A program made the position numbers and the translations under genes. A stretch of 64,000 nt of DNA from Dryomyza anilis. Its lineage: Eukaryota > Arthropoda > Insecta > Diptera > Dryomyzidae. Positions 15,309-60,506 of the stretch are shown here, in pieces; positions within the stretch are counted from its first letter, which is position 1; the number at the start of each line of letters is the position of its first letter. Location: contig OX638135.1 in assembly GCA_951804985.1 (NCBI GenBank), positions 71,081,695-71,145,694 on the forward strand, written 5' to 3'. The notes under the pieces were generated by a model. The model worked only from the letters and a program-made list of their open reading frames with translations. It was not told the DNA's origin and made no database searches.

Positions 15309-17696
15309 TATACATTTACTTTGTTTCATTTTTGGTTAATTTTTTATTTCATTAGCCGAATTTCTTGTATTAGTCGATAGAAAATCGACCAAGTCGAACA
15401 TTTGTCGGCTTTTAGCCGACTATGAGCCGCCGCCGGCTATTTTTTGATGTTAAGCCGCCGCAGCCAATTATTGCTCGGCGCAGGTCTCTACTGCAGGGAT
15501 TAAATAAAATTAAAAACCTGCGCCCAGTTAGCAACGACTCTCAGCAACGGAAATGGTTGGACTTGGAACACAGGGTGTTTTTCGTATTATTTAATTTGGG
15601 GAAAATGCGATTTTTGGGGCTTGTTTGGGGTGTTCTTGGTATCAACATTAGATGACACAGCGCCAAGCAATGCGTTAAAAATAAAACTAACACCCAAATG
15701 GGGATATTTTGGAAGATATAAGCATGAATCCTCTAGAGAATTCCGGAGCCGATTTGGAACACTTAGAAACATTCTGCGCATATGACACCTAGTCCTAAAA
15801 TTTTCTAAAAATATAACCTTTTCAAAAATATATGTCCCATGCCAGCAGAATGTTTCTGAATGGGTGAAATCGGCCCTAACCTAAAAATTCGACCACCTGT
15901 ACTGAACCATCTCAGATCGTTTTAACACCTGCCGGAGGTATTTTTAGCATTAATTTGCAAAGAGAATAATGTAATAAAATGTTGAAAACCAAAATCAAAT
16001 CTCCAAACCACTAGATACTCCTAGAAATACTTTTAATCCTCCACTGGAGGATTAATGGAATTCCAGGAGTAGCAAATGAGCTGGAGATTTGATTTTGGTT
16101 TTCAAAAAATTGAAAAAATATCCTCTATATAATGCATTAGGTGTTATAGTAGCAGAATGTTTGTATCTTTTCAAAAAGGTATTTTTACCACTTTTTGGCC
16201 ATTTTTCTTGGATTTTGGAGCACTTAGAAATAAATGCCGAAACTGACAGTTCCATCATTAGGTATATATGTATTTTTCCAATTTTTTGAGACCACTGTCA
16301 TGTCAGCAGAATGTTCCTAAGTGCTCCAAACTCACTCCGAAATCCTGCAACGATATTACAACAACCATATGGAAAATGTAAACAAATGATGTTGTTGTAA
16401 AAATCATTGCTAACTGGACACTAAAGGGTGGTCATTTTCGTTTGTTTAAAAACAGTTTTAAGGACACTGGATTCAACTACATCCATGATAAAGGTGTCAA
16501 AAAATTTCTAAAAATAATATCTTTCGAATGGAATGACTGTCATTTCGTCCACATCTTCCAATTGGCCATAATTTTACAATTATTCTTAAAAATCCGTTGC
16601 TAGCCATTTACAATCATTCTGCTGGCATGACACCTATTTTATTCGATAGATATTATTTTTACAAACATTTTGATACCAATATCAACTTCCTAGCTGATTT
16701 CCTTCTACTCCAAATCCTGGAATTCCTCCAAATTGGCCAAAAATCCGTTCCAGAACACTTGGACATTTTTCACAGTGATGACACTACGAGAGCTGTATAG
16801 AGGGGAATTTTAGATTTTTTTTTACATTAAAATCAACCCTGTACGGCTACTCTTGCAAATCCTTGAATCCTCCACTGGAGGATTTCCAGAATTCCAGGAG
16901 TAGCAAATAAGCTAGAGACTTGATTTTGGTGTCAAAAAATTTGTAAGAATATCCTCTATGGAATGCATTAGATTTCATAATAGCAGAATGTTTATATAGT
17001 TCCAAAAACGATTTTTACTTCTCTTGGATAATGGAGTAGTAACATTGTTTTTTTTTTACTCAAATTCATTCTAAAAATTAATTTGCAATTTCAATATTAC
17101 TTTTTATAGTTAATTAAATTTACTCTTAAAATGAATTCACATATTAAATATTTCTAAAATAGTTGTAATACCATTAATTTGCATATATTATGGTGTTTTC
17201 CAAAAATTTATATTGGTATCACTTTTTCATGGTATTGAAAGAGCGCGAATCTGTGCTACAAGGAGCGAAAATATGGTTGTTTCGTGTTAATGACTACTTT
17301 TTTATGTTCACACGATAAGTCCACATTTCCCTCGCTTTTTCACACATTCGTGCCCTTTCTTTCTATGCATCCATTTACTCTGTGTGGAAAAAAACGAAAA
17401 GGAAAGACGACATAATATAGTGTTGTTTCATTTACTCGCATTGTTGCCATATAAGAAGAAGCGACAGGCAGTGATGTACCATTTTTGTACCTGCAGTGAT
17501 GTACCGTAAAGTATAATTTTTTAATGCTTTTTATATTTCAATATGCAAATAGTGCTTTTTCGAAATAATACTCGGAGTATATATAATATTTTTATTATAT
17601 TTGTATTATAATATTTTGATATTGGGGTACATTTATCACATTTATATAAAGATAATAAATCAAAATATTAATCATAATTTATCATAAATTACATTA

Positions 17697-17839
<143 letters not shown>

Positions 17840-18134
17840 CCAAACATCAATATACCACAAAATACTACAAACTAATAGAAAATAAAATAAATTAAACATT
17901 ATTATTAAACAATTAACGTTCATATTTTTTGAATTGACTTAGGAATATTTATTGAAAATTTAATATGAAAAAAATATATATCAAAAAAGATAAAAATATT
18001 CGAAATTTAAATTAAAATATAGATTAGGATCAGTGTAAATATGCATTCTAAATAGCAAATATAGATTTTTTAAAAAATATATGGTATTTTTGTTTTTACA
18101 TGTGGTAATTTTGTTTGTCCCAAAATTCGACATA

Positions 18135-19810
18135 CCCAGCAAGACATGACTTACCGAAACTCCAACACAAAGACAATATTATATTTTCTCACCCATACAT
18201 AAATAATTTGAAATACATCCCTGCAGGATCAATGACAGTAATGAAAACTTATATTTTTTGCGCGTTGGTTTGCCACCATTTTTTATTTGTACACACAGAA
18301 AAAAAAGTGTGTAAATATAACTAAAATGTTAATCAATCCAATTAATTTTTAATTGAAACTCAGCCGATGTAACTTTTAGTAGCATTGAATCCCATATTCG
18401 TAATAATGAGAATATGTTAATTGGAGAAACATTAATTAATTTTTTTGTCATATTGATTATATTTTTTATTGGGTATTTTTAAATCATTAATTAATTAATT
18501 AGTAACATCAATTAAAAATTTCATTCGATAGAAATTGGATCATTTAAATATTTTGTTAAATTAAATAAAATATTTGTCGAATATATAACATAAAATAAAT
18601 ATTAAATAAGTATTTATACTGTTTGATATGCTTTGTAAATGTTTTACCGAAGTCAGTTTTCACAACTTCTGCAGGTGGGCCAATTAATTGAGTCAAACAT
18701 AAAATTTGATATTCGCTTTTTAATGATTCAATATGCAACAAAATGAGCATCATAAGCTGTTTGTTCAAATTCTTGACCTCAAAAATAAATTGAGCCCTTT
18801 AATGCTTTAATAACATAACATACACTAAATAATGTAATATTCTGTTTTAAAACCGCAACGTAGAAGAAAATAATGTTAGAAGAAACTGAACGACGCCGCC
18901 GACGCACGAGACGCACAAACAAAAAACAAAATGAAAGCCAGAAGAAAAAAACAGTGTTGCAATTTAAGAAAATGAATAAATCAAAAGTAACAAATAAAAG
19001 TAGTTAATACTATTAAAGATTTAGTTGTATTGAAATTATATTAAATTAATTCCTATTAATATTTTAATTAAAAATATGTGTAAATACAATTAATTAATTA
19101 GTAAATACATTCATATTTTTAATTGGAATACGATTTTGTTTGCTATTAATATCAATTGTTATATATACGTACAATATTTTTTTCTGTGTAGGTTATTCAT
19201 TTCGTTTGGCACAGCAGCCGCTACAGCAGGAGTAGAAAATAGATTTTACTTAAATTATAAACAATTGATAAAAAGAAATTATATTAAAAAGAGTATTTTT
19301 ATAGATTGCTTATTTATCTATTTATTTTACAGATATCATCAAAATGGAAGGGTCGTCTGCATTAAAAAAATGCATGGAAGGAAGCAAAACAACGGCAAAC
19401 AAAAGTCGTTTTAATAGAAAATCTGCAAAGCAAGCATTACATTCAACGCAATAAAAATGAAAACTATAGAATTTTGGATTTTTTGATTTTATTTGGTTTA
19501 ATTTGGTTATTTTACTAATTATTTAGCCATCCCTAACCTCAAAATTAAATCAGTTTATTTTACGTAAATTATTTGGTAAATTTACCTGTAATTTAATCGT
19601 CACTTATTACCAAAAGAACAGTGACAGGCATATATTCAATTGTATCTCATTGTAGATGAGTGAGAAAGAAATAAAAAATCACACGCACACAAAAGTTTCG
19701 GTAAGTTTTATCCCGACGGTCTTAACAATGTTATAGAAACTTTTACTGAATCTTTCAGTTTTGCTACTAGTAATATTACTGCTAACATGACCGGCAGTGT
19801 TCTTGCTGGG
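18135..19810. mobile_element. TA-target MITE, CCCAGCAAGA ends (copy 2, with nested insertion)
   Basis: It has the same ends as the copy at 11981-12744 and is flanked by TA (18133-18134, 19811-19812). The inverted arm near 34200 shows the empty site, CGACATATAGTAG when read in the same orientation, which directly confirms a 2-bp TA duplication. Without the nested 18292-19188 insertion it is about 777 bp long. Confidence 0.92.
18292..19188. mobile_element. Nested TA-target MITE, CACA(CA)GAAAAAA ends
   Basis: The ends CACACAGAAAAAAA and TTTTTTTCTGTG are flanked by TA. The uninterrupted sibling at 11981-12744 reads TTATTTGTAGGTTATTC across this point, proving an insertion with TA duplication. 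The interior is AT-rich and non-coding, with unrelated small open frames. A similar end (CACACAGAAAAA) occurs on the fold-back element at 40516-42390. Confidence 0.88.
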
Positions 19811-20007
19811 TATAGTAGTTTTCCATGTGGTAATTACTACATCCCACAAATTATAAATTATCAAAAACATATTTTCCTACAAAACTATCGACAATGCTAA
19901 AAATCACTACCGCGTAGTCCGTAGTAGAGGAATAGAAATATGAAAACCGAAAGGTAGTATATCTAGTCCGAACGTAGTAGAACGTAAACCCTGGTGTTAT
20001 ATACAAA

Positions 20008-20034
20008 ATGTCTGCTGTTTGCTGCACACCAGGT
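20008..20034 (+). other. Possible tiny first exon in left arm
   Basis: The sequence encodes MSAVCCTP and is followed by a GT donor (CCAG/GTACAT). A T-rich tract and acceptor (TTTTTACAG) lie at about 20101-20109, next to the exon-like block. The start resembles the Cys-Cys beginning of THAP-type proteins, but no further THAP residues are visible, so no function is assigned. The R4 arm has the mirror copy near 33979-34005. Confidence 0.25.
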
Positions 20035-20109
20035 ACATTTTTATTACAAAGTTTTATATTTTATATCTATTTAATTGTATATTTAAACATTTGTTTTTAT
20101 TTTTTACAG

Positions 20110-20267
20110 ATTACTCAGTTGGGCAACATGATGCAGTGGTGGGTAAAAGTGTCTAAGGATTATGGCATTAGCGAAGCTCGTTCGAAGTGGCTCGGGCCAA
20201 AATCCATTAGAGGCCAGTTGTGAAAGTGGCAGAATACGCAAACTACAAGCGTTTTACACAAATTCAG
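20110..20267 (+). pseudogene. Unidentified exon-like block, left-arm copy
   Basis: Bounded by an acceptor (TTACAG) and a donor (CAG/GTAACA), it reads ITQLGNMMQWWVKVSKDYGI then SEA before frames diverge. The left copy lacks 2 bases present in the four inverted copies (GCTCG versus GCTCGAG), so the continuations differ. One frame gives AKSIRGQL, another ESSRIRKLQAFYTNSG. It lies just upstream of the exportin-5 fragment. I do not recognise the family. It may be a neighbouring exon captured with exportin-5 or part of an element gene. Confidence 0.5.
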
Positions 20268-20329
20268 GTAACAAAATACATTTTTTTTTGTTTTAAATCG
20301 GCGACTATATTAACAGATTTTATTAACAG

Positions 20330-20655
20330 AAAATCACAATATCATGGAACATTTCGAGCCGTGGAGCAGGCGGTAGAGTTCATTATGCATCCGCAGACCG
20401 TGCATCAAGTCGGCATGGAGGTATAAATGGCCTGTGAACGCCTCAAGGTGGAGTCACCGCTCTTTGTACAGGTCGGCAATGAAGCTGGTGTTGGGCCCGT
20501 TGCAGACACCACGCTATCAGATCTCAAAGACGCCTTGTCGCGCATAATCGTCGAGATGATCAAACGCGGTTGGCCTCAGCAATGGACCACGCTGCTGTCT
20601 GTCTCAAACTGAGCTGGTGCTGTTGATCTTCCTGAGTCCTGTAGGCGGTAGAGCT
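20330..20655 (+). pseudogene. Captured exportin-5 gene fragment, left-arm copy
   Basis: The translation resembles the N-terminal region of exportin-5, the karyopherin that exports double-stranded small RNAs and tRNA from the nucleus in a Ran-GTP-dependent way (Ranbp21 in flies). Visible matches are AVEQAVEFIMHPQT, ACERLKVESPLFVQVG, LKDALSRIIVEMIKRGWPQQ and, after a frame change, QTELVLLIFL. Compared with the animal family, about 50 residues are missing between VQVG and LKDALSR and a linker is missing before TELV. In-frame stops occur at 20424 and 20610. An intron-like gap with a TTAACAG acceptor precedes it. It is far too short (about 90 of roughly 1200 residues) to function as an exportin. 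Identification is from memory of the family, not a search. Confidence 0.75.
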
Positions 20656-21075
20656 TAAATTACTTTTTTTTAAGGACATGAAATTTGAAGTTTAAGAATA
20701 ATGACCATTGGGCATATGTTCATGTTAAGAAGACTTAAATTTTTTCAAAAAATTGTTTTATTAAATTCAAAACGAAATGTTAACGGAGTTTTTAGCATAA
20801 AGAAATATTTCAATATGAACCACGAAACAAAAGTGATCTTTACAATTTTTTAAACTATCTGAAAAAGTGGTGTATCTAAAACTAGTGGTCGGAAAAATAT
20901 AAAAAAAGTTCTATGCAGATCTCGATGCGCGTGAGTTGCAAATCCTGTGCGATTTAGTGTGAAATGACTCAAATACGATATGAAATTTGTATTTCAACAT
21001 TTTAATATTTCGGCATTTTAGTTTTCGACATTTTTTGTTTCTATAAAAAAAAAATGTTTGTGTATTTATAGTTTC
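20656..21075. other. Inner part of the left arm, TTTCGACATTTT-rich
   Basis: Non-coding AT-rich sequence next to the loop. It includes GTCCTT...TTAAGAATAATGACCATTG and then GGTCGGAAAAATATAAA, all mirrored from 21258 to 21676. A short diverged relative of the segment 20680-20890 is present near 48850-49015. Confidence 0.6.
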
Positions 21076-21257
21076 AAAGATTTTTCGACATTTTCTAGCA
21101 TTTAAATATTTTTCGGCATTTTTTGATTCTGCCAAATATTGTTTCGGCGTTCTAAAGCTTTTAAAATTTCGACATTTTTAGGTTTCGACATTTTTATTTT
21201 CTACATTTTTGTCTTCGGTGTTTTTATTTTCGATATTTCAAATTTCGACGATATGTT
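21076..21257. repeat. Loop of the giant inverted repeat, TTTCGACATTTT satellite
   Basis: About 180 bp of short degenerate repeats (TTTCGACATTTTTAG, TTTCGGCATTTT) sit between the two arms, where ATGTTTGTGTATTTATAG pairs with its complement at about 21260-21290. Similar loops precede units R2 to R4. Confidence 0.8.
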
Positions 21258-21676
21258 GAAACTATAAATACACAAACATTTTTTTTTATAGAATCAAAAA
21301 ATGTCGAAAACTAAAATGCCGAAATATTAAAATGTTGAAATACAAATTTCATATCGTATTTGAGTCATTTCACACTAAATCGCACAGGATTTGCAACTCA
21401 CGCGCATCGAGATCTGCATATAACTTTTTTTATATTTTTCCGACCACTAGTTTTAGATACACCACTTTTTCAGATAGTTTAAAAAATTGTAAAGATCACT
21501 TTTGTTTCGTGGTTCATATTGAAATATTTCTTTATGCTAAAAACTCCGTTAACATTTCGTTTTGAAATTAATAAAACAATTTTTTGAAAAAATTTAAGTC
21601 TTCTTAACATGAACATATGACCAATGGTCATTATTCTTAAACTTCAAATTTCATGTCCTTAAAAAAAAGTAATTTA

Positions 21677-22002
21677 AGCTCTACCGCCTACAGGACTCAG
21701 GAAGATCAACAGCACCAGCTCAGTTTGAGACAGACAGCAGCGTGGTCCATTGCTGAGGCCAACCGCGTTTGATCATCTCGACGATTATGCGCGACAAGGC
21801 GTCTTTGAGATCTGATAGCGTGGTGTCTGCAACGGGCCCAACACCAGCTTCATTGCCGACCTGTACAAAGAGCGGTGACTCCACCTTGAGGCGTTCACAG
21901 GCCATTTATACCTCCATGCCGACTTGATGCACGGTCTGCGGATGCATAATGAACTCTACCGCCTGCTCCACGGCTCGAAATGTTCCATGATATTGTGATT
22001 TT
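21677..22002 (-). pseudogene. Captured exportin-5 fragment, R1 copy
   Basis: Inverted copy of the fragment at 20330-20655, with the same stops and internal deletion. Near identity of the two arms implies recent inverted duplication or conversion. Confidence 0.75.
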
Positions 22003-22067
22003 CTGTTAATAAAATCTGTTAATATAGTCGCCGATTTAAAACAAAAAAAAAAAATGTATTTTGTTAC

Positions 22068-22227
22068 CTGAATTTGTGTAAAACGCTTGTAGTTTGCGTA
22101 TTCTGCTACTTTCACAACTGGCCTCTAATGGATTTTGGCCCGAGCCACTTCGAACTCGAGCTTCGCTAATGCCATAATCCTTAGACACTTTTACCCACCA
22201 CTGCATCATGTTGCCCAACTGAGTAAT
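22068..22227 (-). pseudogene. Unidentified exon-like block, R1 copy
   Basis: Inverted copy of 20110-20267 with 2 additional bases. The longest frame starts GNMMQWWVKVSKDYGISEAR and continues to KLQAFYTNSG before reading into the intron-like T/A tract. Confidence 0.5.
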
Positions 22228-23585
22228 CTGTAAAAAAATAAAAACAAATGTTTAAATATACAATTATGTAAAAAAAATTCTAAAATTCCCCTCTATACAG
22301 CTCTCGTAGTGTCATCACTGTGAAAAATGTCCAAGTGTTCTGGAACGGATTTTTGTCCAATTTGGAGGAATTCCAGGATTTGGAGTAGAAGGAAATCAGC
22401 TAGGAAGTTGATATTGGTATCAAAATGTTTGTAAAAATAATATCTATCGAATGGCATAGGTGTCATTCCAGCATGATTGTAAATGGCTAGCAACGGATTT
22501 TTAAGAATAATTGTAAAATTATGACCAATTGGAAGATGTGGACGAAATGACAGTCATTCCATTCGAAAGGTATTATTTTTAGAAATTTTTTGACACCTTT
22601 ATCATGGATGTAGTTGAATCCAGTGTCCTTAAAACTGTTTTTAAACAAACGAAAATGACCACCCTGTAGTGTCCAGTTAGCAATGATTTTACAACAACAT
22701 CATTTGTTTACATTTTTCATATGGTTGTTGTAATATCGTTGCAGGATTTGGAGTGAGTTTGGAGCACTTAGGAACATTCTGCTGACATGACAATGGTCTC
22801 AAAAAATTGGAAAAATACATATATACCTAATGATGGAACTGTCAGTTTCGGCATTTATTTCTAAGTGCTCCAAAATCCAAGAAAAATGGCCAAAAAGTGG
22901 TAAAAATACCTTTTTGAAAAGATACAAACATTCTGCTACTATAACACCTAATACATTATAAAAAGGATATTTTTAAAATTTTTTTGACACCAAAATCAAG
23001 TCTCCAGCTCATTTGCTACTCCTGGAATTCCATTAATCCTCCAGTGGAGGATTAAAAGTATTTCTAGGAGTATCTAGTGGTTTGGAGATTTGATTTTGGT
23101 TTTAAACATTTTATTACATTATTCTCTTTGCAAATTAATGCTAAAAATATCTCCGGCAGGTGTTAAAACGATCTGAGATGGTTCAGTACAGGTGGTCGAA
23201 TTTTTAGGTTAGGGCCGATTTCACCCATTCAGAAACATTCTGCTGACATGGGACATATATTTTTGGAAAGGTTATATTTTTATAAAATTTTAGGACTAGG
23301 TGTCATATGCGCAGAATGTTTCTAAGTGTTCCAAATCGGCTCCGGAATTCTCTAGAGGATTCATGCTTATATCTTCCAAAATATCCCCATTTGGGTGTTA
23401 ATTTTATTTTTAACGCATTGCTTGGCGCTGTGTCATCTAATGTTGATACCAAGAACACCCCAAACAAGCCCCAAAACCACAAAAATCGCATTTTCCCCAA
23501 ACTAAATAATACGAAAAAAAAAACACCCTGTGTTCCAAGTCCAACCATTTCCGTTGCTGAGAGTCGTTGCTAACTGGACGCAGGT

Positions 23586-24132
23586 CGTAATTTCACCGTA
23601 ATTTTACATTGTTAGTCGTTATATGGTCATTAGAATTATTATTTTGCATAGAATTATTATTTGCATAGTTCAACGGTTACCGAGTTATAATTTTTGCCCT
23701 TAACACATTCTGTCGATGTAATTTGAACTACTTTCTGGTCTTTGAAAATGTCCCCAACGATTTCCTGTACCAAGCATTGTCGAGATCAGTTAAGTGATAA
23801 CCGAGATATAAAATTTTGATCTTAACACCCTCTATCGATATAATTTAAAACTACACTCTAGACTATGTTAAGTTTGGTGCCCGCAAGAGTAATTGTACCA
23901 AGTTTTTCATATATCGGTTCAGCAGTTACCGCGATATGTTTTGTCCTTACCGCCCTCTATCTATATAATTTCGAACTACACACTAGCATATCGTCGTTGT
24001 AGAACGAACAATCACCAAATACATTTTCAAAATGCCAAATATTCATTTACAAAAATCTTTATACATCTGTTAACTTTTAATCGATGATATCAATTTTATT
24101 AACCAAATGATTAGAAAATTGAAATTTCAATT
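23586..24132. repeat. Spacer with three degenerate ~110-bp repeats (S1)
   Basis: It lies between the fold-back end and the second element end. Three units share GTTACCGAGTTATAATTTT, then CTTAACACCCTCTATCGAT and ATAATTTxGAACTAC. Copies S2 (about 27509-28053) and S3 (about 31423-31976) are nearly identical. No gene is recognised. Confidence 0.75.
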
Positions 24133-24880
24133 GCGTTCAGTTAGCAACGATGCTCAGCAATGGAAACGGTGTTTGAAACACAGGGTGGTCATATTTAGTT
24201 TGGGGAAATTGATTTTTTTGGGGTTTTGGTGATTGTTTAGGGCGGTACCAATGGCTGCATTCAGCAACCTCAGCAGTTGGTAACTGCTCAGTGACTAATC
24301 GCTCACTGTTACTAAATGCACCGCTATCAAAGCTGTCAATTTATAAATTAATTTATTATTAATATTTTATTAAAATTACATACAACATACATGAAAACAT
24401 ATATTCCAATCTAAATTCCATTTTTGTTTATAAATATTTGAGTTAAAATGTCATCGATTGTCATCGATAACAAAGACAGCGCAAATGTAGCGCAAAAATT
24501 TTATGCTGGAAAAAATGGCGACCGCTCACTAAACATGTTGAGGGTAGCATGCCATTTAAGCTCAAATTGCTCAACAGCTTCACAACTGCTGAGGTCGCTG
24601 AATGCAGCCAATATCAGATGACACAGCCTCAACAATACAGCGTAAACAAAAATTAACACACAAATGTGGATATTTTGGAAGACATAAGCATGAATGCTGT
24701 AGAGAATTCCGGAGCCAATTTGGAGAACATAGGAAACATTCTACGCATATGAAACTTACTCCTAAAATTTTCTAAAAATACCTTTTCAAAAATAAATGTC
24801 CCATGCCAGGGGCGGATCCAGAAGTATGACTTGGGGGGTTTGATTGATTTTTGTGCGCATTTTTTTCCAAATTTTTCTAA
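24133..24880. mobile_element. Second fold-back-like end (copy 1)
   Basis: It starts GCGTTCAGTTAGCAACGATG, a diverged relative of the giant element's end (CAGTTAGCAACGACTCTCAG), and shares the ACACAGGGTGGT and TAGATGACACAGC segments in order. It is interrupted by a 357-bp MITE and ends at a GCCAGGGGCGGATCCAG motif followed by ATTTTTCTAAAA. Other copies start at 28054, 31977 and 36115. Confidence 0.65.
24253..24609. mobile_element. 357-bp MITE, GGCTGCATTCAGC ends (copy 1)
   Basis: The ~28-bp inverted ends read GGCTGCATTCAGC(A/G)ACCTC then AGCAGTTG. The interior has ATTGTCATCGATAAC and no coding region. The related arm sequence near 15645 reads across without it, supporting insertion. The target duplication is short and ambiguous (AAT or CCAAT). 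Confidence 0.8.
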
Positions 24881-25512
24881 AACGTTTGTGTATTTATAGT
24901 TTCAAAGATTTTTCGACATTTTCTAGCATTTAAATATTTTTCGACATTTTTTGATTCTGCCAAATATTGTTTCGACGTTCTAGCTTTTAAAATTTCGACA
25001 TTTTTAGGTTTCGACATTTTTATTTTCTACATTTTTGTCTTCGGTATTTATTTTCGATATTTCAAATTTCGACGATATGTTGAAACTATAAATACACAAA
25101 CATTTTTTTTTATAGAATCAAAAAATATCGAAAACTAAAATGCCGAAATATTAAAATGTTGAAATACAAATTTCATATCGTATTTGAGTCATTTCACACT
25201 AAATCGCACAGGATTTGCAACTCACGCGCATCGAGATCTGCATAGAACTTTTTTTATATTTTTCCGACCACTAGTTTTAGATACACCACTTTTTCCAGAG
25301 ATACAGTTCCAAGTTTAAAAAATTGTAAAGATCACTTTTGTTTGGTGGTTCATTTTGAAATATTTCTTTATGCTAAAAACTCCGTTAACATTTCGTTTTG
25401 AATTTAATAAAACAATTTTTTGAAAAAATTTAAGTCTTCTTAACATGAACATATGACCAATGGTCATTATTCTTAAACTTCAAATTTCATGTCCTTAAAA
25501 AAAAGTAATTTA

Positions 25513-25838
25513 AGCTCTACCGCCTACAGGACTCAGGAAGATCAACAGCACCAGCTCAGTTTGAGACAGACAGCAGCGTGGTCCATTGCTGAGGCCAACC
25601 GCGTTTGATCATCTCGACGATTATGCGCGACAAGGCGTCTTTGAGATCTGATAGCGTGGTGTCTGCAACGGGCCCAACACCAGCTTCATTGCCGACCTGT
25701 ACAAAGAGCGGTGACTCCACCTTGAGGCGTTCACAGGCCATTTATACCTCCATGCCGACTTGATGCACGGTCTGCGGATGCATAATGAACTCTACCGCCT
25801 GCTCCACGGCTCGAAATGTTCCATGATATTGTGATTTT
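25513..25838 (-). pseudogene. Captured exportin-5 fragment, R2 copy
   Basis: Same sequence and same disabling stops as the R1 copy. Confidence 0.75.
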
Positions 25839-25903
25839 CTGTTAATAAAATCTGTTAATATAGTCGCCGATTTAAAACAAAAAAAAAAAATGTATTTTGT
25901 TAC

Positions 25904-26063
25904 CTGAATTTGTGTAAAACGCTTGTAGTTTGCGTATTCTGCTACTTTCACAACTGGCCTCTAATGGATTTTGGCCCGAGCCACTTCGAACTCGAGCTTC
26001 GCTAATGCCATAATCCTTAGACACTTTTACCCACCACTGCATCATGTTGCCCAACTGAGTAAT
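25904..26063 (-). pseudogene. Unidentified exon-like block, R2 copy
   Basis: Same as the R1 copy, with the same splice-like borders. Confidence 0.5.
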
Positions 26064-27508
26064 CTGTAAAAAAATAAAAACAAATGTTTAAATATACAAT
26101 TATGTAAAAAAAATTCTAAAATTCCCCTCTATACAGCTCTCGTAGTGTCATCACTGTGAAAAATGTCCAAGTGTTCTGGAACGGATTTTTGTCCAATTTG
26201 GAGGAATTCCAGGATTTGGAGTAGAAGGAAATCAGCTAGGAAGTTGATATTGGTATCAAAATGTTTGTAAAAATAATATCTATCGAATGGCATAGGTGTC
26301 ATTCCAGCATGATTGTAAATGGCTAGCAACGGATTTTTAAGAATAATTGTAAAATTATGACCAATTGGAAGATGTGGACGAAATGACAGTCATTCCATTC
26401 GAAAGGTATTATTTTTAGAAATTTTTTGACACCTTTATCATGGATGTAGTTGAATCCAGTGTCCTTAAAACTGTTTTTAAACAAACGAAAATGACCACCC
26501 TGTAGTGTCCAGTTAGCAATGATTTTACAACAACATCATTTGTTTACATTTTTCATATGGTTGTTGTAATATCGTTGCAGGATTTGGAGTGAGTTTGGAG
26601 CACTTAGGAACATTCTGCTGACATGACAGTGGTCTCAAAAAATTGGAAAAATACATATATACCTAATGATGGAACTGTCAGTTTCGGCATTTATTTCTAA
26701 GTGCATGACAGTGGTCTCAAAAAATTGGAAAAATACATATATACCTAATGATGGAACTGTCAGTTTCGGCATTTATTTCTAAGTGCTCCAAAATCCAAGA
26801 AAAATGGCCAAAAAGTGGTAAAAATACCTTTTTGAAAAGATACAAACATTCTGCTACTATAACACCTAATACATTATAAAAAGGATATTTTTAAAATTTT
26901 TTTGACACCAAAATCAAGTCTCCAGCTCATTTGCTACTCCTGGAATTCCATTAATCCTCCAGTGGAGGATTAAAAGTATTTCTAGGAGTATCTAGTGGTT
27001 TGGAGATTTGATTTTGGTTTTAAACATTTTATTACATTATTCTCTTTGCAAATTAATGCTAAAAATATCTCCGGCAGGTGTTAAAACGATCTGAGATGGT
27101 TCAGTACAGGTGGTCGAATTTTTAGGTTAGGGCCGATTTCACCCATTCAGAAACATTCTGCTGACATGGGACATATATTTTTGGAAAGGTTATATTTTTA
27201 GAAAATTTTAGGACTAGGTGTCATACGCGCAGAATGTTTCTAAGTGTTCCAAATCGGCTCCGGAATTCTCTAGAGGATTCATGCTTATATCTTCCAAAAT
27301 ATCCCCAGTTGGGTGTTAATTTTATTTTTAACGTATTGCTTGGCGCTGTGTCATCTAATGTTGATACCAAGAACACCCCAAACAAGCCCCAAAACCACAA
27401 AAATCGCATTTTCCCAAAACTAAATAATACGAAAAAAAAAAACACACCCTGTGTTCCAAGTCCAACCATTTCCGTTGCTGAGACTCGTTGCTAACTGGAC
27501 GCAGGTCG

Positions 27509-28053
27509 TAATTTCACCGTAATTTTACATTGTTAGTCGTTATATGGTCATTAGAATTATTATTTTGCATAGAATTATTATTTGCATAGTTCAACGGTTA
27601 CCGAGTTATAATTTTTGCCCTTAACACATTCTGTCGATGTAATTTGAACTACTTTCTGGTCTTTGAAAATGTCCCCAACGATTTCCTGTACCAAGCATTG
27701 TCGAGATCAGTTAAGTGATAACCGAGATATAAAATTTTGATCTTAACACCCTCTATCGATATAATTTAAAACTACACTCTAGACTATGTTAAGTTTGGTG
27801 CCCGCAAGAGTAATTGTACCAAGTTTTTCATATATCGGTTCAGCAGTTACCGCGATATGTTTTGTCCTTACCGCCCTCTATCTATATAATTTCGAACTAC
27901 ACACTAGCATATCGTCGTTGTAGAACGAACAATCACCAAATACATTTTCAAAATGCCAAATATTCATTTACAAAAATCTTTATACATCTGTTAACTTTTA
28001 ATCGATGATATCAATTTTATTAACCAAATGATAAGAAAATTGAAATTTCAATT
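27509..28053. repeat. Spacer copy S2
   Basis: Near-identical to S1, with the same three internal ~110-bp units. Confidence 0.75.
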
Positions 28054-28173
28054 GCGTTCAGTTAGCAACGATGCTCAGCAATGGAAACGGTGTTTGAAAC
28101 ACAGGGTGGTCATATTTAGTTTGGGGAAATTGATTTTTTTGGGGTGTTGGTGATTGTTTAGGGCGGTACCAAT

Positions 28174-28530
28174 GGCTGCATTCAGCAACCTCAGCAGTTG
28201 GTAACTGCTCAGTGACTAATCGCTCACTGTTACTAAATGCACCGCTATCAAAGCTGTCAATTTATAAATTAATTTATTATTAATATTTTATTAAAATTAC
28301 ATACAACATACATGAAAACATATATTCCAATCTAAATTCCATTTTTGTTTATAAATATTTGAGTTAAAATGTCATCGATTGTCATCGATAACAAAGACAG
28401 CGCAAATGTAGCGCAAAAATTTTATGCTGGAAAAAATGGCGACCGCTCACTAAACATGTTGAGGGTAGCATGCCATTTAAGCTCAAATTGCTCAACAGCT
28501 TCACAACTGCTGAGGTCGCTGAATGCAGCC
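28174..28530. mobile_element. 357-bp MITE (copy 2)
   Basis: Same element carried in R2. Confidence 0.8.
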
Positions 28531-29435
28531 AATATCAGATGACACAGCCTCAACAATACAGCGTAAACAAAAATTAACACACAAATGTGGATATTTTGGA
28601 AGACATAAGCATGAATGCTGTAGAGAATTCCGGAGCCAATTTGGAGAACATAGGAAACATTCTACGCATATGAAACTTACTCCTAAAATTTTCTAAAAAT
28701 ACCTTTTCAAAAATAAATGTCCCATGCCAGGGGCGGATCCAGAAGTATGACTTGGGGGGTTTGATTGATTTTTGTGCGCATTTTTTTCCAAATTTTTCTA
28801 AAACGTTTGTGTATTTATAGTTTCAAAGATTTTTCGACATTTTCTAGCATTTAAATATTTTTCGACATTTTTTGATTCTGCCAAATATTGTTTCGACGTT
28901 CTAAAGCTTTTAAAATTTCGACATTTTTAGGTTTCGACATTTTTATTTTCTACATTTTTGTCTTCGGTATTTATTTTCGATATTTCAAATTTCGACGATA
29001 TGTTGAAACTATAAATACACAAACATTTTTTTTTATAGAATCAAAAAATATCGAAAACTAAAATGCCGAAATATTAAAATGTTGAAATACAAATTTCATA
29101 TCGTATTTGAGTCATTTCACACTAAATCGCACAGGATTTGCAACTCACGCGCATCGAGATCTGCATAGAACTTTTTTTATATTTTTCCGACCACTAGTTT
29201 TAGATACACCACTTTTTCCAGAGATACAGTTCCAAGTTTAAAAAATTGTAAAGATCACTTTTGTTTGGTGGTTCATTTTGAAATATTTCTTTATGCTAAA
29301 AACTCCGTTAACATTTCGTTTTGAATTTAATAAAACAATTTTTTGAAAAAATTTAAGTCTTCTTAACATGAACATATGACCAATGGTCATTATTCTTAAA
29401 CTTCAAATTTCATGTCCTTAAAAAAAAGTAATTTA

Positions 29436-29761
29436 AGCTCTACCGCCTACAGGACTCAGGAAGATCAACAGCACCAGCTCAGTTTGAGACAGACAGCAGC
29501 GTGGTCCATTGCTGAGGCCAACCGCGTTTGATCATCTCGACGATTATGCGCGACAAGGCGTCTTTGAGATCTGATAGCGTGGTGTCTGCAACGGGCCCAA
29601 CACCAGCTTCATTGCCGACCTGTACAAAGAGCGGTGACTCCACCTTGAGGCGTTCACAGGCCATTTATACCTCCATGCCGACTTGATGCACGGTCTGCGG
29701 ATGCATAATGAACTCTACCGCCTGCTCCACGGCTCGAAATGTTCCATGATATTGTGATTTT
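29436..29761 (-). pseudogene. Captured exportin-5 fragment, R3 copy
   Basis: Same sequence and same stops as the R1 and R2 copies. Confidence 0.75.
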
Positions 29762-29826
29762 CTGTTAATAAAATCTGTTAATATAGTCGCCGATTTAAAA
29801 CAAAAAAAAAAAATGTATTTTGTTAC

Positions 29827-29986
29827 CTGAATTTGTGTAAAACGCTTGTAGTTTGCGTATTCTGCTACTTTCACAACTGGCCTCTAATGGATTTTGGCCC
29901 GAGCCACTTCGAACTCGAGCTTCGCTAATGCCATAATCCTTAGACACTTTTACCCACCACTGCATCATGTTGCCCAACTGAGTAAT
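29827..29986 (-). pseudogene. Unidentified exon-like block, R3 copy
   Basis: Same as the R1 and R2 copies. Confidence 0.5.
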
Positions 29987-31422
29987 CTGTAAAAAAATAA
30001 AAACAAATGTTTAAATATACAATTATGTAAAAAAAATTCTAAAATTCCCCTCTATACAGCTCTCGTAGTGTCATCACTGTGAAAAATGTCCAAGTGTTCT
30101 GGAACGGATTTTTGTCCAATTTGGAGGAATTCCAGGATTTGGAGTAGAAGGAAATCAGCTAGGAAGTTGATATTGGTATCAAAATGTTTGTAAAAATAAT
30201 ATCTATCGAATGGCATAGGTGTCATTCCAGCATGATTGTAAATGGCTAGCAACGGATTTTTAAGAATAATTGTAAAATTATGACCAATTGGAAGATGTGG
30301 ACGAAATGACAGTCATTCCATTCGAAAGGTATTATTTTTAGAAATTTTTTGACACCTTTATCATGGATGTAGTTGAATCCAGTGTCCTTAAAACTGTTTT
30401 TAAACAAACGAAAATGACCACCCTGTAGTGTCCAGTTAGCAATGATTTTACAACAACATCATTTGTTTACATTTTTCATATGGTTGTTGTAATATCGTTG
30501 CAGGATTTGGAGTGAGTTTGGAGCACTTAGGAACATTCTGCTGACATGACAGTGGTCTCAAAAAATTGGAAAAATACATATATACCTAATGATGGAACTG
30601 TCAGTTTCGGCATTTATTTCTAAGTGCATGACAGTGGTCTCAAAAAATTGGAAAAATACATATATACCTAATGATGGAACTGTCAGTTTCGGCATTTATT
30701 TCTAAGTGCTCCAAAATCCAAGAAAAATGGCCAAAAAGTGGTAAAAATACCTTTTTGAAAAGATACAAACATTCTGCTACTATAACACCTAATACATTAT
30801 AAAAAGGATATTTTTAAAATTTTTTTGACACCAAAATCAAGTCTCCAGCTCATTTGCTACTCCTGGAATTCCATTAATCCTCCAGTGGAGGATTAAAAGT
30901 ATTTCTAGGAGTATCTAGTGGTTTGGAGATTTGATTTTGGTTTTAAACATTTTATTACATTATTCTCTTTGCAAATTAATGCTAAAAATATCTCCGGCAG
31001 GTGTTAAAACGATCTGAGATGGTTCAGTACAGGTGGTCGAATTTTTAGGTTAGGGCCGATTTCACCCATTCAGAAACATTCTGCTGACATGGGACATATA
31101 TTTTTGGAAAGGTTATATTTTTAGAAAATTTTAGGACTAGGTGTCATACGCGCAGAATGTTTCTAAGTGTTCCAAATCGGCTCCGGAATTCTCTAGAGGA
31201 TTCATGCTTATATCTTCCAAAATATCCCCAGTTGGGTGTTAATTTTATTTTTAACGTATTGCTTGGCGCTGTGTCATCTAATGTTGATACCAAGAACACC
31301 CCAAACAAGCCCCAAAACCACAAAAATCGCATTTTCCCAAAACTAAATAATACGAAAAAAAAAAAAACACCCTGTGTTCCAAGTCCAACCATTTCCGTTG
31401 CTGAGACTCGTTGCTAACTGGA

Positions 31423-31976
31423 CGCAGGTCGTAATTTCACCGTAATTTTACATTGTTAGTCGTTATATGGTCATTAGAATTATTATTTTGCATAGAATTA
31501 TTATTTGCATAGTTCAACGGTTACCGAGTTATAATTTTTGCCCTTAACACATTCTGTCGATGTAATTTGAACTACTTTCTGGTCTTTGAAAATGTCCCCA
31601 ACGATTTCCTGTACCAAGCATTGTCGAGATCAGTTAAGTGATAACCGAGATATAAAATTTTGATCTTAACACCCTCTATCGATATAATTTAAAACTACAC
31701 TCTAGACTATGTTAAGTTTGGTGCCCGCAAGAGTAATTGTACCAAGTTTTTCATATATCGGTTCAGCAGTTACCGCGATATGTTTTGTCCTTACCGCCCT
31801 CTATCTATATAATTTCGAACTACACACTAGCATATCGTCGTTGTAGAACGAACAATCACCAAATACATTTTCAAAATGCCAAATATTCATTTACAAAAAT
31901 CTTTATACATCTGTTAACTTTTAATCGATGATATCAATTTTATTAACCAAATGATAAGAAAATTGAAATTTCAATT
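31423..31976. repeat. Spacer copy S3
   Basis: Near-identical to S1 and S2. Confidence 0.75.
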
Positions 31977-32096
31977 GCGTTCAGTTAGCAACGATGCTCA
32001 GCAATGGAAACGGTGTTTGAAACACAGGGTGGTCATATTTAGTTTGGGGAAATTGATTTTTTTGGGGTGTTGGTGATTGTTTAGGGCGGTACCAAT

Positions 32097-32444
32097 GGCT
32101 GCATTCAGCAACCTCTGCAGTTGGTAACTGCTCAGTGACTAATCGCTCACTGTTACTAAATGCACCGCTATCAAAGCTGTCAATTTATAAATTAATTTAT
32201 TATTAATATTTTATTAAAATTACATACAACATACATGAAAACATATATTCCAATCTAAATTCCATTTTTGTTTATAAATATTTGAGTTAAAATGTCATCG
32301 ATTGTCATCGATAACAAAGACAGCGCAAATGTAGCGCAAAAATTTTATGCTGAAAAAAATGGCGACCGCTCACTAAACATGTTGAGGGTAGCATGCCATT
32401 TAAGCTCAAATTGCTCAACAGTTTCACAACTGCTGAATGCAGCC
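32097..32444. mobile_element. 357-bp MITE (copy 3, small deletion)
   Basis: Same element in R3. It lacks about 9 bp of the right inverted end (AGGTCGCTG). Confidence 0.8.
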
Positions 32445-33349
32445 AATATCAGATGACACAGCCTCAACAATACAGCGTAAACAAAAATTAACACACAAAT
32501 GTGGATATTTTGGAAGACATAAGCATGAATGCTGTAGAGAATTCCGGAGCCAATTTGGAGAACATAGGAAACATTCTACGCATATGAAACTTACTCCTAA
32601 AATTTTCTAAAAATACCTTTTCAAAAATAAATGTCCCATGCCATGGGCGGATCCAGAAGTATGACTTGGGGGGTTTGATTGATTTTTGTGCGCATTTTTT
32701 TCCAAATTTTTCTAAAACGTTTGTGTATTTATAGTTTCAAAGATTTTTCGACATTTTCTAGCATTTAAATATTTTTCGACATTTTTTGATTCTGCCAAAT
32801 ATTGTTTCGACGTTCTAAAGCTTTTAAAATTTCGACATTTTTAGGTTTCGACATTTTTATTTTCTACATTTTTGTCTTCGGTATTTATTTTCGATATTTC
32901 AAATTTCGACGATATGTTGAAACTATAAATACACAAACATTTTTTTTTATAGAATCAAAAAATATCGAAAACTAAAATGCCGAAATATTAAAATGTTGAA
33001 ATACAAATTTCATATCGTATTTGAGTCATTTCACACTAAATCGCACAGGATTTGCAACTCACGCGCATCGAGATCTGCATAGAACTTTTTTTATATTTTT
33101 CCGACCACTAGTTTTAGATACACCACTTTTTCCAGAGATACAGTTCTAAGTTTAAAAAATTGTAAAGATCACTTTTGTTTGGTGGTTCATTTTGAAATAT
33201 TTCTTTATGCTAAAAACTCCGTTAACATTTCGTTTTGAATTTAATAAAACAATTTTTTGAAAAAATTTAAGTCTTCTTAACATGAACATATGACCAATGG
33301 TCATTATTCTTAAACTTCAAATTTCATGTCCTTAAAAAAAAGTAATTTA

Positions 33350-33675
33350 AGCTCTACCGCCTACAGGACTCAGGAAGATCAACAGCACCAGCTCAGTTTG
33401 AGACAGACAGCAGCGTGGTCCATTGCTGAGGCCAACCGCGTTTGATCATCTCGACGATTATGCGCGACAAGGCGTCTTTGAGATCTGATAGCGTGGTGTC
33501 TGCAACGGGCCCATCACCAGCTTCATTGCCGACCTGTACAAAGAGCGGTGACTCCACCTTGAGGCGTTCACAGGCCATTTATACCTCCATGCCGACTTGA
33601 TGCACGGTCTGCGGATGCATAATGAACTCTACCGCCTGCTCCACGGCTCGAAATGTTCCATGATATTGTGATTTT
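33350..33675 (-). pseudogene. Captured exportin-5 fragment, R4 copy
   Basis: As the other copies, but with one private change (EAGVGP reads EAGDGP). The A-run in the preceding intron-like gap is longer by two or three bases, which opens the frame so that it joins the exon-like block without interruption (33579-33893). This is a chance fusion, not evidence for a gene. Confidence 0.75.
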
Positions 33676-33742
33676 CTGTTAATAAAATCTGTTAATATAG
33701 TCGCCGATTTAAAACAAAAAAAAAAAAAATGTATTTTGTTAC

Positions 33743-33902
33743 CTGAATTTGTGTAAAACGCTTGTAGTTTGCGTATTCTGCTACTTTCACAACTGGCCTC
33801 TAATGGATTTTGGCCCGAGCCACTTCGAACTCGAGCTTCGCTAATGCCATAATCCTTAGACACTTTTACCCACCACTGCATCATGTTGCCCAACTGAGTA
33901 AT
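33743..33902 (-). pseudogene. Unidentified exon-like block, R4 copy
   Basis: Same as the R1-R3 copies. In this copy the upstream tiny-exon segment is also kept, so the arrangement matches the left arm. Confidence 0.5.
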
Positions 33903-34495
33903 CTGTAAAAAAATAAAAACAAATGTTTAAATATACAATTAAATAGATATAAAATATAAAACTTTGTAATAAAAATGTACCTGGTGTGCAGCAAACAGCA
34001 GACATTTTGTATATAACACCAGGGTTTACGTTCTACTACGTTCGGACTAGATATACTACCTTTCGGTTTTCATATTTCTATTCCTCTACTACGGACTACG
34101 CGGTAGTGATTTTTAGCATTGTCGATAGTTTTGTAGGAAAATATGTTTTTGATAATTTATAATTTGTGGGATGTAGTAATTACCACATGGAAAACTACTA
34201 TATGTCGAATTTTGGGACAAACAAAATTACCACATGTAAAAACAAAAATACCATATATTTTTTAAAAAATCTATATTTACTATTTAGAATGCATATTTAC
34301 ACTGATCCTAATCTATATTTTCATTTAAATTTCGAATATTTTTATCTTTTTTGATATATTTTTTTTTCATATTAAATTTTCAATAAATATTCCTAAGTCA
34401 ATTCAAAAAATATGAACGTTAATTGTTTAATAATAATGTTTAATTTATTTTATTTTCTATTAGTTTGTAGTATTTTGTGGTATATTGATGTTTGG

Positions 34496-34597
<102 letters not shown>

Positions 34598-35072
34598 TTT
34601 TATTTTTAATGTAATTTATGATAAATTATGATTAATATTTTGATTTATTATCTTTATATAAATGTGATAAATGTACCCCAATATCAAAATATTATAATAA
34701 AAATATTATATATACTCCGAGTATTATTTCGAAAAAGCACTATTTGCATATTGAAATATAAAAAGCATTAAAAAATTATACTTTATGGTACATCACTGCA
34801 GGTACAAAAATGGTACATCACTGCCTGTCGCTTCTTCCTATATGGCAACTATATTATGTCGTCCTTCCTTTTCGTTTTTTTCCACACAGAGTAAATGGAT
34901 GCATAGAAAGAAAGGGCGCGAATGTGTGAAAAAGCGAGGGAAATGTGGACTTATCGTGTGAACATAAAAAAGTAGTCATTAACACGAAACAACCATATTT
35001 TCAATACCATGAAAAAGTGATACCAATATAAATTTTTGGAAAACACCAAAATATATGCAAATTAATGGTATC

Positions 35073-35349
35073 ACTCGCCTTCTAGAACTTGAACTGGTCG
35101 GTTGTCTTCTCGACTGTTCTCGTTCGGCGATGTCATTTATAGTTAACGGGAGTAATCCCGTTTTCTAAGTCAAACACATTTACAGTTTTTGTGACGCGAA
35201 CGGCTTCGTTGCTAAGGCGCATAAAGTGTAGATAAAATTACTTTGTAAATCAATTAAACAGACATTAGTTATGGCGTTATAATCGAAAGATTGGCCAAGT
35301 AAATCTTCAATAATTTTATTGAAGTAACTTATAACCAAAAAAAAAAAAA
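35073..35349 (+). mobile_element. Poly(A)-tailed retroposed insertion of unknown origin
   Basis: This 277-bp insertion starts CACTCGCCTTCTAGAACTTG and ends in a 13-base A-run. It is flanked by an exact 10-bp duplication, TTAATGGTAT (35063-35072, 35350-35359). The left arm near 17180-17200 has the empty site. These are hallmarks of target-primed reverse transcription. I see no tRNA-type A or B box and no ORF, so the source could be a 5'-truncated mRNA, a non-coding RNA or a new SINE. Confidence 0.85.
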
Positions 35350-36234
35350 TTAATGGTATTACTACTATTTTAGAAATATTTAATATGTGAATTCATTTTA
35401 AGAGTGAATTTAATTAACTATAAAAAGAAATATTGAAATTGAAAATTCATTTTTAGAATGAATTTGAGTAAAAAAAAAAACAATGTTACTACTCCATTAT
35501 CCAAAAGAAGTAAAAATCGTTTTTGGAACTATATAAACATTCTAATGCATTCCATAGAGGATATTCTTACACATTTTTTGACACCAAAATCAAGTCTCTA
35601 GCTTATTTGCTACTCCTGGAATTCTGGAAATCCTCCAGTGGAGGATTCAAGGATTTGCAAGAGTAGCCGTACAGGGTTGATTTTAATGTAAAAAAAAATC
35701 TAAAATCCCCCTCTATACAGCTCTCGTAGTGTCATCACTGTGAAAAATGTCCAAGTGTTCTGGAACGGATTTTTGGCCAATTTGGAGGAATTCCAGGATT
35801 TGGAGTAGAAGGAAATCAGCTAGGAAGTTGATATTGGTATCAAAATGTTTGTAAAAATAATATGTATCGAATGGCATAGGTGTCATGCCAGCATGATTGT
35901 AAATGGCTAGCAACGGATTTTTAAGAATAATTGTAAAATTATGACCAATTGGAAGATGTGGACGAAATGACAGTCATTCCATTCGAAAGATATTATTTTT
36001 AGAAATTTTTTGACACCTTTATCATGAATGTAGTTGAATCCAGTGTCATTAAAACTGTTTTTAAACAAACGAAAATGACCACCCTGTAGTGTCCAGTTAG
36101 CAATGATTTTACGTGCGTTCAGTTAGCAACGATGCTCAGCAATGGAAACGGTGTTTGAAACACAGGGTGGTCATATTTAGTTTGGGGAAATTGATTTTTT
36201 TGGGGTTTTGGTGATTGTTTAGGGCGGTACCAAT

Positions 36235-36591
36235 GGCTGCATTCAGCGACCTCAGCAGTTGGGAACTGCTCAGTAACTAATCGCTCACTGTTACTAAATG
36301 CACCGCTATCAAAGCTGTCAATTTATAAATTAATTTATTATTAATATTTTATTAAAATTACATACAACATACATGAAAACATATATTCCAATCTAAATTC
36401 CATTTTTGTTTATAAATATTTGAGTTAAAATGTCATCGATTGTCATCGATAACAAAGACAGCGCAAATGTAGCGCAAAAATTTTATGCTGGAAAAAATGG
36501 CGACCGCTCACTAAACATGTTGAGGGTAGCATGCCATTTAAGCTCAAATTGCTCAACAGCTTCACAACTGCTGAGGTCGCTGAATGCAGCC
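36235..36591. mobile_element. 357-bp MITE (copy 4)
   Basis: Same element at the right boundary of R4, with a GCGACCTC variant on the left end that restores a better match between its two ends. Confidence 0.8.
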
Positions 36592-36854
36592 AATATCAGA
36601 TGACACAGCCTCAACAATACAGCGTAAACAAAAATTAACACACAAATGTGGATATTTTGGAAGACATAAGCATGAATGCTGTAGAGAATTCCGGAGCCAA
36701 TTTGGAGAACATATGAAACTACGCATATGAAACTTACTCCTAAAATTTTCTAAAAATACCTTTTCAAAAATAAATGTCCCATGCCAGGGGCGGATCCAGA
36801 AGTATGACTTGGGGGGTTTGATTGATTTTTGTGCGCATTTTTTTCCAAATTTTT

Positions 36855-37007
36855 CTAAAATGCGCCCCAAAAATTTATTTTGCGCCCTTTTTTATATTTT
36901 CTCATCAAATACTGTGAATAATGAATTATACACAACTTCACTTCTTTAAACCAACAGTTTTATTTTCTTAAAAAAGAAAAAAATAGGATGCGATTGGATA
37001 TGTGGTA
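36855..37007. other. Short spacer
   Basis: It contains TGCGCCCCAAAAATTTATTTTGCGCCC-like sequence (36860-36890), which may be the native continuation of the second element end that is replaced by the loop in R1-R3. Confidence 0.35.
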
Positions 37008-37960
37008 CACTAAGAACGATGATTACCAGAAATATCACAGCCCTAAATATCAAGTTATTTACAAATTATTTAGATCGTATTTGAGACAACCATCTCTCAA
37101 ACATCCGTCAAATACGATAATTATTGCTAGCAACCATCTTTCAAATTTACAATTATGTATAGCAACCATCAATTATGTATAGCAACATCTTACAAATAGA
37201 AAGATAGTTGATGAATATTTGGAAAAGGTACTCCATTAGAATTCGCGGAGTATTTTTTATTGAATTGAAAGAAAATGAATCAAATGTATTTTTATTTATT
37301 CTAGAATTAAAACAGTATCCTTGTTATACATCGCCGACGTCTTTATAAATACTTCGAAGGTAAAATTTTACGACTTGAGATTTTTTCGTAGAAGAACCAC
37401 GTCCGTCCGGCGATGCTGCCATCAAAGTAAACTCTGAAAAGAAATATTTTCCATCACGTGTTGATAATTTCAATCCAAGGAAGTTTTATTTTCACTTTTA
37501 CCATTAAAACGTAAATTTTGAGTTGACACTTTTTACACCATTAAATTTACTAAATTGTTGTGGAAATCGAGAGTAAGGAAAAAGTACGCCATTTTCCTTT
37601 TTTCTGGTAGTCAAATGTCAAACTACCTCAAAAGTTTTGCTGCAAATGTCCACGAACTCTAGATGTTTGCTATCAATCAACTGTAAATATCTCAATTTCC
37701 ATTGTTGTTGTGGCAAAAATCTCGTTACTAATGCCTGGTTTTCACTATGTCATTTTGTGTCATATTTGTTTTCTTTACATTATGATTGCGACGCAGAAAC
37801 TGACCAAAATTAAAATGTTAATTCACCATGTCAGTCGATAACAAAATGCCAACATGTTTACTAAATTGTTGTGGAAATCGAGAGTAAGGCTTAAATTTAA
37901 GGCTTAAATTTAAAAGGATAGTTGCAGCAAGACTTTCATAAACATCTTGTTTTCTTAATG
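37008..37960 (+). mobile_element. CACTAAG MITE (copy 1)
   Basis: It begins CACTAAGAACGATGATTACC, ends CATCTTGTTTTCTTAATG and is flanked by TA on both sides. Subterminal repeats of the form CAACCATCT(T/C)TCAAA occur several times in the first 200 bp. It contains a nested fragment (about 37736-37857) of the small MITE seen at 11173. No transposase is encoded. Confidence 0.85.
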
Positions 37961-38368
37961 TACCCTAGAAAAATCGAAAACCGGTGCACCTACAAATTTG
38001 GTCATATAGGTACTCAAATGAAAGGTAATAATGCCACATTTGTAATTATATGGTTATTTTTATGATCTGATAACCATAGCGATTAGGATTTGTAATTATG
38101 TAAACAAAAATAAAAACTAAAATGCTGATTGTTGAGAAAAATATTTAATTATTTATCAAAATGACGACGAAATTTAGAAATAAATAGATAACGCTGAAAC
38201 CCTTTTTAAAATTTTCTAGAAGTGGCCCAACAGTTAATTATAATATTTCGTAGGGAAGTTATATCGAAGAAGCTATATTTAAAAAATTTAAATATTTTAT
38301 TTTTTAAAACATAAATACAAATGTGTATAATAGACTCCTGAGTAAATTTCTTTTCGTTTGGATACCCA
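37961..38368. other. Spacer between two MITE copies
   Basis: AT-rich and non-coding. It contains CCGGTGCACCTACAAATTTG and TATAGGTACTCAAATGAAAG, a weak relative of the 40980-41000 and 44410-44440 segments. Confidence 0.35.
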
Positions 38369-39226
38369 CACTAAGAAAACAAAGATGATTACCAGAAATA
38401 TCACAGCCCTAAATATCAAGATATTTACAAATTATTTAGATCATCTTTGAGACAACCATCTCTCAAACATACAATAAATATTGCTGGCAACCGTCTTTCA
38501 AATTTATGATTATTTATAGCAACCATCACATAAACATCTTACAAATATGAAGATAGTTGCGGAATATTTGGAAAAGGTACTCCATTAGAATTCGCGGAGT
38601 AATTTTTATTGAATTAAAATAAAATGAATCAAATGTATTTTTATATATTCTAGAATTAAAACAGTATCCTGTTAATACATCGCCATCGTCTTTATAAATC
38701 CTTTGAAGGGAAAATTGTACAATGACTTGAGACTTCTTCGCGGAAGAACCAAGTCCGTCCGGCGATGCTGTCATCAAAGTAAACTCTGAAAAGAAATAAT
38801 TTTCCATCACTTGTTGATAATTTCAATCCCAGGAAATTTTATTTTCACTTTTACCATTAAAATGTAATATTTGAGTTGACACTTTTTTACACCATTTGAT
38901 TTACTTAATTGTTGTGGATAAATCGATCATAAGGAAAAAGTATGCCATTTTCCTTTTTTATAGTAATCAAATGTCAAAATACCACAAAAGTGTTGATGCA
39001 AATGTCCAAAAACTCAGGATGTTTGCTATTAGTAAACTATAAATATCTCAATTTTCATTGCTGTTGTGGCAAACCTTTCGTAAATATCTGCATATATGTC
39101 ATATTTAAAAAATATTAATAGTTTTGCTGCAACTTTATTGAAACTTATGGGATATTTGAATATTTGCTATAAGGCGTAAATTTAAACGGATAGTTGCAGC
39201 AAGACTTTCATCTTGTTTTCTTAGTG
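38369..39226 (+). mobile_element. CACTAAG MITE (copy 2)
   Basis: 858 bp, with ends CACTAAGAAAACAA and its complement. The right flank is TA, the left flank CA (probably a mutated TA). It has the same interior as copy 1 without the nested fragment. The 94-residue minus-strand frame inside is not conserved in the other copies. Confidence 0.88.

Positions 39227-56514: not shown

Positions 56515-58734
<2,220 letters not shown>

Positions 58735-60428: not shown

Positions 60429-60430
<2 letters not shown>

Positions 60431-60500: not shown

Positions 60501-60506
<6 letters not shown>

Follow-up and report, generated by a model that had tools for sequence, protein, structure and literature searches.

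The window analysed in this work, a stretch of 64,000 nucleotides from the fly Dryomyza anilis, contains five remnants of the N-terminal coding region of exportin-5, one on the plus strand and four on the minus strand, which were located by tblastn with the exportin-5 of Lucilia as the query. Copy 1 occupies 20361..20652 on the plus strand, where tblastn matched 20361-20600 and 20602-20634 and the last 18 bases were added by eye, while copies 2 to 5 occupy 21698..21971, 25534..25807, 29457..29730 and 33371..33644 on the minus strand, as bounded by tblastn. Inspection by eye indicates that the match in copy 1 may extend to 20652 and may start at a methionine at 20344. The first-pass annotation of this DNA had described just such a set, with five degraded N-terminal segments within 20330-33675 divided between the strands in this way and situated in the arms of an inverted repeat, and tblastn, the self-comparison of the window and the lesions described below are in agreement with that description.

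Identity and decay of the remnants

The tblastn E-values obtained with Lucilia exportin-5 are 7e-22 for four of the copies and 5e-21 for the fifth. When only the first 175 residues of the protein are used, the scores are 88.2 bits at four copies and 85.5 at the fifth, compared to a top score of 28.1 bits among 300 shuffled Lucilia exportin-5 queries, and this same 175-residue query reaches at most 20.8 bits anywhere outside the five copies. In the reverse direction, a search of a large protein set using the fragment with its stops written as X yielded 66 candidates, 41 of them at E<=1e-3; an organism name is attached to 30 of the 41, all of which are from Diptera, and one further match is named exportin-5. 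Wherever one of the 41 has been given a specific name, it is exportin-5 or exportin-5-like, and the others have generic names or none. The top match is from Lucilia cuprina (E 3.9e-21), and the other best scores include Glossina and Musca. All 41 proteins, each over 600 amino acids in length, match only these five places in the window at E<=1e-3 and none matches past query residue 182, so the rest of the exportin-5 gene is absent from the window at this threshold.

Among solved structures the fragment scores 34.1 bits (E 2.3e-7) with exportin-5 and 13.3 bits with exportin-1, the next family; judged by these comparisons, the fragment is exportin-5 rather than exportin-1. The best match is exportin-5 and no other family, and the two peptides which the first-pass annotation had named as family signatures, ALSRIIVEMIKRGWPQQ and QTELVLLIFL, are both found in the translation of 20110-20655, in different frames owing to a frameshift. 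One result counts against the identification: the Pfam Xpo1 model scores 14.7 bits, below its cutoff of 22.7, in one of the three frames scanned. In a phylogenetic tree a very long branch (1.19) leads to the fragment, to which the tree gives no firm placement.

The residues of Lucilia exportin-5 that are matched are 14-139 and 150-160. The first of these stretches, which spans 126 residues, is covered by 80 codons, a net loss of 46 residues located after about residue 52; ten further residues are lost between 139 and 150, the frame changes at 20600/20602, and a stop codon also lies inside the remnant. The loss of constraint can be gauged from the residues shared without exception by the exportin-5 proteins of 24 flies, of which 19 belong to named species. 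Eight of 48 interior invariant residues are changed in the remnant, compared to 0-1 of 48-49 when each real fly protein is evaluated against the others, and if ragged ends and deletion borders are counted as well, the figures become 16 of 57 and 0-2 of 57-59, respectively. With its broken frame and lost constraint, the remnant is, on its sequence, a pseudogene. Because the deletions, the stop codon and the frameshift are common to all five copies, the decay is taken to have preceded the amplification. Variable columns among the copies are less frequent in the exportin-5 part (1 of 292) than elsewhere in the repeat unit (12 of 713, including four next to an indel), a difference that could hint at constraint, but with a Fisher p of 0.12 selection on the exportin-5 part is not claimed.

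Upstream of the remnant lies an exon-like stretch, at 20110..20267 on the plus strand, which is preceded by AG and followed by GT. It has an open frame of 53 codons in the four minus copies, and is 2 bases shorter in the plus copy. No relatives of it were found in Pfam, in solved structures or in the large protein set (protein lengths of about 275-875 amino acids; 4 candidates, none at E<=10). The stretch may be a 5' exon of exportin-5, it may come from a second captured gene, or its appearance may be due to chance.

Organization and growth of the array

The architecture was mapped by comparing the window with itself using BLAST, and the map describes pieces of at least 200 bases among the matches listed; smaller repeats may be missing from it. 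From left to right the array consists of an inverted left part, a loop and four head-to-tail units. The left part comprises S1' (15516..16827, minus strand), which forms the outer left arm and is an inverted copy of 22266-23585; the spacer X' (16827..20072, minus strand), whose counterpart in the fourth unit is 33941-35686; and E+ (20072-21077, plus strand), which was delimited by self-BLAST. The loop between the inner arms (21078..21255) contains degenerate 15-base repeats of the TTTCGACATTTTT type. The four units, each of which contains a loop, the segment E- with the exportin-5 piece, and the segments S1 and S2, have a length of about 3.9 kb and were delimited by their junctions at 21051..24878, 24879..28799, 28800..32713 and 32714..36856. 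The fourth differs from the others in keeping the spacer X (33941-35686), which is missing at the matching place in units 1-3, as seen from the junction sequence in units 1 and 2 and from the BLAST borders in unit 3; in addition, just 427 bases of its S1 match in self-BLAST, and its S2 ends at about 36857. An exact tandem duplication of 82 bases was detected in units 2 and 3 only, at 26622-26786 and 30545-30709.

The three internal junctions between S2 and the loop (J1-J3) are identical, with TTTTTCT joined to AAAACGTTTG, while the sequence that follows S2 in the flank is AAAATGCG and that of the loop is AAAATGTTTG. An AAAA(T/C)G microhomology is present at the junctions, and the motif is found in the loop as well as where S2 ends ahead of the flank. 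The identity of the junctions fits a single tandem duplication joined at this microhomology, which would then have been followed by unequal exchange. The similarity of the units is high: 22786-30025 and 26704-33941 are 99.56% identical over 7247 aligned bases.

Near-identity of this kind is also what would be seen if chimaeric long reads had introduced false inverted or tandem copies into the assembly, but this explanation is hardly credible for the array as a whole, because its arms are set apart by an insertion whose site is empty in the opposite arm, by spacer X, which is present or absent, and by substitutions at scattered positions. The insertion (18135..19810) lies in X' and is found in the left arm only; it has CCCAGCAAG ends as inverted repeats together with a TA duplication, and comparison of the filled and empty sites places the empty site retained by the right arm near 34202. 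These differences imply separate histories for the two arms, so that the palindrome is no simple artefact of assembly; the number of near-identical units could still be wrong. A second element with CCCAGCAAG / CTTGCTGGG ends is situated at 11981-12744.

The divergence between the arms is uneven. The outer arms are 96.5% identical over 1325 aligned bases and differ at 28 of 1307 sites, and the inner arms are 98.8% identical over 1012 aligned bases and differ at 5 of 1005. At seven columns within 20814-21029, four of which are beside an indel, copies 1 and 2 agree with each other against copies 3-5, and the same 12 bases are absent from both. On this pattern the inner arms are taken to have undergone partial gene conversion with each other, most visible beside the loop. 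Five columns still distinguish copy 1 from copy 2, so the conversion, if real, would be incomplete.

Comparison with fold-back elements and hairpin loci

The first-pass annotation had proposed that the exportin-5 piece was captured and amplified inside a fold-back element. Such a reading, in which the piece was captured and is moved by a transposon of the true fold-back or Pack-TIR kind, ending in long inverted repeats, and the present locus is one rearranged copy of that element, draws on several features of the array: the long inverted arms found by self-BLAST, the degenerate short repeats in the loop, and a piece of S1 (22669-23581) whose 18-base ends match by eye as inverted repeats (GYGTCCAGTTAGCAAYGA). 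It is nevertheless rather unlikely. No exact target-site duplication of 7-12 bases was found at six pairs of borders, although a decayed one would be missed by such a search and two 6-base AT matches occur at one of the pairs; no transposase domain was found by Pfam in the read-through frames of the repeat parts scanned; and tandem duplication alone accounts for the four minus copies. The parts scanned with Pfam were 16400-17180 and 22300-24800 in the plus frames, 33941-35686 in six frames and 22266-24882 in the minus frames. Hits of read-through frames to SBP_bac_6 (E 0.17) and Glyco_transf_5 (E 0.017) were below the cutoffs and were taken as chance. Long inverted repeats, a feature of fold-back elements, are present as arms that may or may not be the termini of an element, and the array contains host-gene sequence, which a Pack-TIR element would hold between the terminal inverted repeats of a transposon. 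What stands of the proposal is the exportin-5 origin, the degradation, the five copies and their location in inverted arms; capture by an element is not supported, and the four minus copies can be accounted for by duplication head to tail at a junction that does not change, for which transposition is unneeded. S2 (24132-24882) starts with an end similar to that of S1 and is arranged head to head with it, and S1 and S2 look like a small non-autonomous DNA transposon family.

Two fly systems serve as precedents for the fold-back reading. In D. melanogaster the element FB4 has amplified the gene Ssk to give Ssk-FB4, a Pack-TIR family (PMC8277862), and this report weakens the expectation in the first-pass annotation that it would be unusual for a fly fold-back element to capture and locally amplify a small-RNA export factor. 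As in the exportin-5 array, host gene sequence has been multiplied along with inverted-repeat fly DNA (PMC8277862); however, the carrier in that case is FB4, a defined transposon, and its copies are reported to form a young family of proteins (PMC8277862), while the array described here has no defined element, no target-site duplication that could be found, and a dead gene piece. Tetris of D. virilis is a fold-back element that seeds satellite arrays (TIR-220), and it resembles the present array in being an inverted-repeat unit, parts of which have become head-to-tail arrays (PMC4079207). Tetris is reported to have target-site duplications of 8-10 bp, repeats of about 220 bp and many genomic copies (PMC4079207), in contrast to the exportin-5 array, which yielded no target-site duplication and has a unit of about 3.9 kb.

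The inner arms also raise the question of a hairpin RNA (hpRNA) locus, in which a transcript of 20072-22266 would fold into a duplex of 1 kb and some of the siRNAs that Dicer-2 derives from it would match and lower the native exportin-5 mRNA, or the locus would silence exportin-5-derived copies elsewhere. The long inverted repeat is able to form dsRNA in the predicted fold of 20072-22266, where 1001 of the 1006 bases of the left arm pair with the opposite arm, the exportin-5 bases are paired at 274 of 274 positions, and perfect stacks reach 423 bp. At the protein level the arms are homologous to the exportin-5 of other flies (tblastn), and identity with fly exportin-5 over peptide runs of 15 and 10 residues would permit perfect matches of 21 nt. 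D. simulans has hpRNAs that contain inverted pieces of the genes they target, and these often occur multiplied in tandem (PMC10317233). Against this, copies 3-5, three of the five, lack a neighbour in the opposite orientation, and many residues have diverged, which makes a match to the native mRNA uncertain. An hpRNA function of this kind is judged improbable. Known hpRNA loci resemble the array in the inverted copies of a host gene exon seen in Dsim-hp58 and in the tandem multiplication seen in the hp-CG4068 cluster (PMC10317233); the present array differs from these Drosophila loci (PMC10317233) in that only one of its five copies is opposite to the rest and in that it is known here from DNA alone. 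A related comparison is with the co-amplified genes of the X and Y, which share with the array the local amplification of host gene copies but are sex-linked and transcribed, with small RNAs (PMC6690552); neither exportin nor Ranbp21 appears in the main text of that source.

Other features of the window

Several further repeats are present outside the array. A direct duplication of 3.45 kb (53569-57021 and 57051-60504), 99.94% identical and with an (AT)n run at the joint, contains an RVT_1 reverse-transcriptase stretch at 53660-54232; it is either very recent or an assembly duplication. Direct and inverted repeats of another family, with identities of about 80-94%, extend over 37012-47330, and no link between this family and the exportin-5 array was found among the self-BLAST matches listed. 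Remnants of reverse transcriptase and retroelement integrase (RVT_1, rve) occur at 49348-49971 and 63139-63564, and tandem arrays at 8379-9118, 966-1172 and 5381-5783 repeat about every 164, 59 and 142 bases, respectively. Rfam at its gathering threshold gave nothing in the window. Comparison of the DNA with plasmids (near matches) and with viral and genome contigs (one exact pattern each) also gave nothing, as expected for insect DNA.

Conclusions

The explanation that we consider probable is that the array is a passive gene remnant, multiplied by inverted and tandem duplication and homogenised by gene conversion. A piece from the 5' end of an exportin-5 gene of a fly would have been copied into repeat-rich DNA and would have decayed there before its multiplication; an inverted duplication of the locus would then have taken place, as well as head-to-tail duplication of the region running from the loop through S2, giving four units at the microhomology junction, with gene conversion homogenising the copies, most visibly between the inner arms beside the loop. 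The fragments do not give rise to exportin-5 and probably have no function. Among the observations that run against a purely passive remnant are the exon-like stretch, with its splice-like borders and its open frame in four copies, and the inner hairpin, whose predicted fold has the form expected of a functional hpRNA.

It is very doubtful that the locus is a transcribed hpRNA locus with siRNAs acting on exportin-5, a factor that exports RNA in the small-RNA pathways. In that event an RNAi-type hairpin would tune the export of small RNAs and tRNAs in a feedback or conflict loop, and the conflict would have produced the tandem array. Small RNAs from the locus, if found, would provide a test of whether hairpin RNAs can be directed at the very machinery of RNA export; otherwise the array is ordinary repeat biology. 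Among the matches listed in a literature search of titles and the starts of abstracts, with most subscription journals outside its scope, there was no report of exportin-5 fragments in an insect inverted repeat. Under the passive-remnant explanation, the array offers a clean example of how a piece of a host gene can be carried and multiplied by palindrome formation and tandem duplication, with junctions that can still be read.
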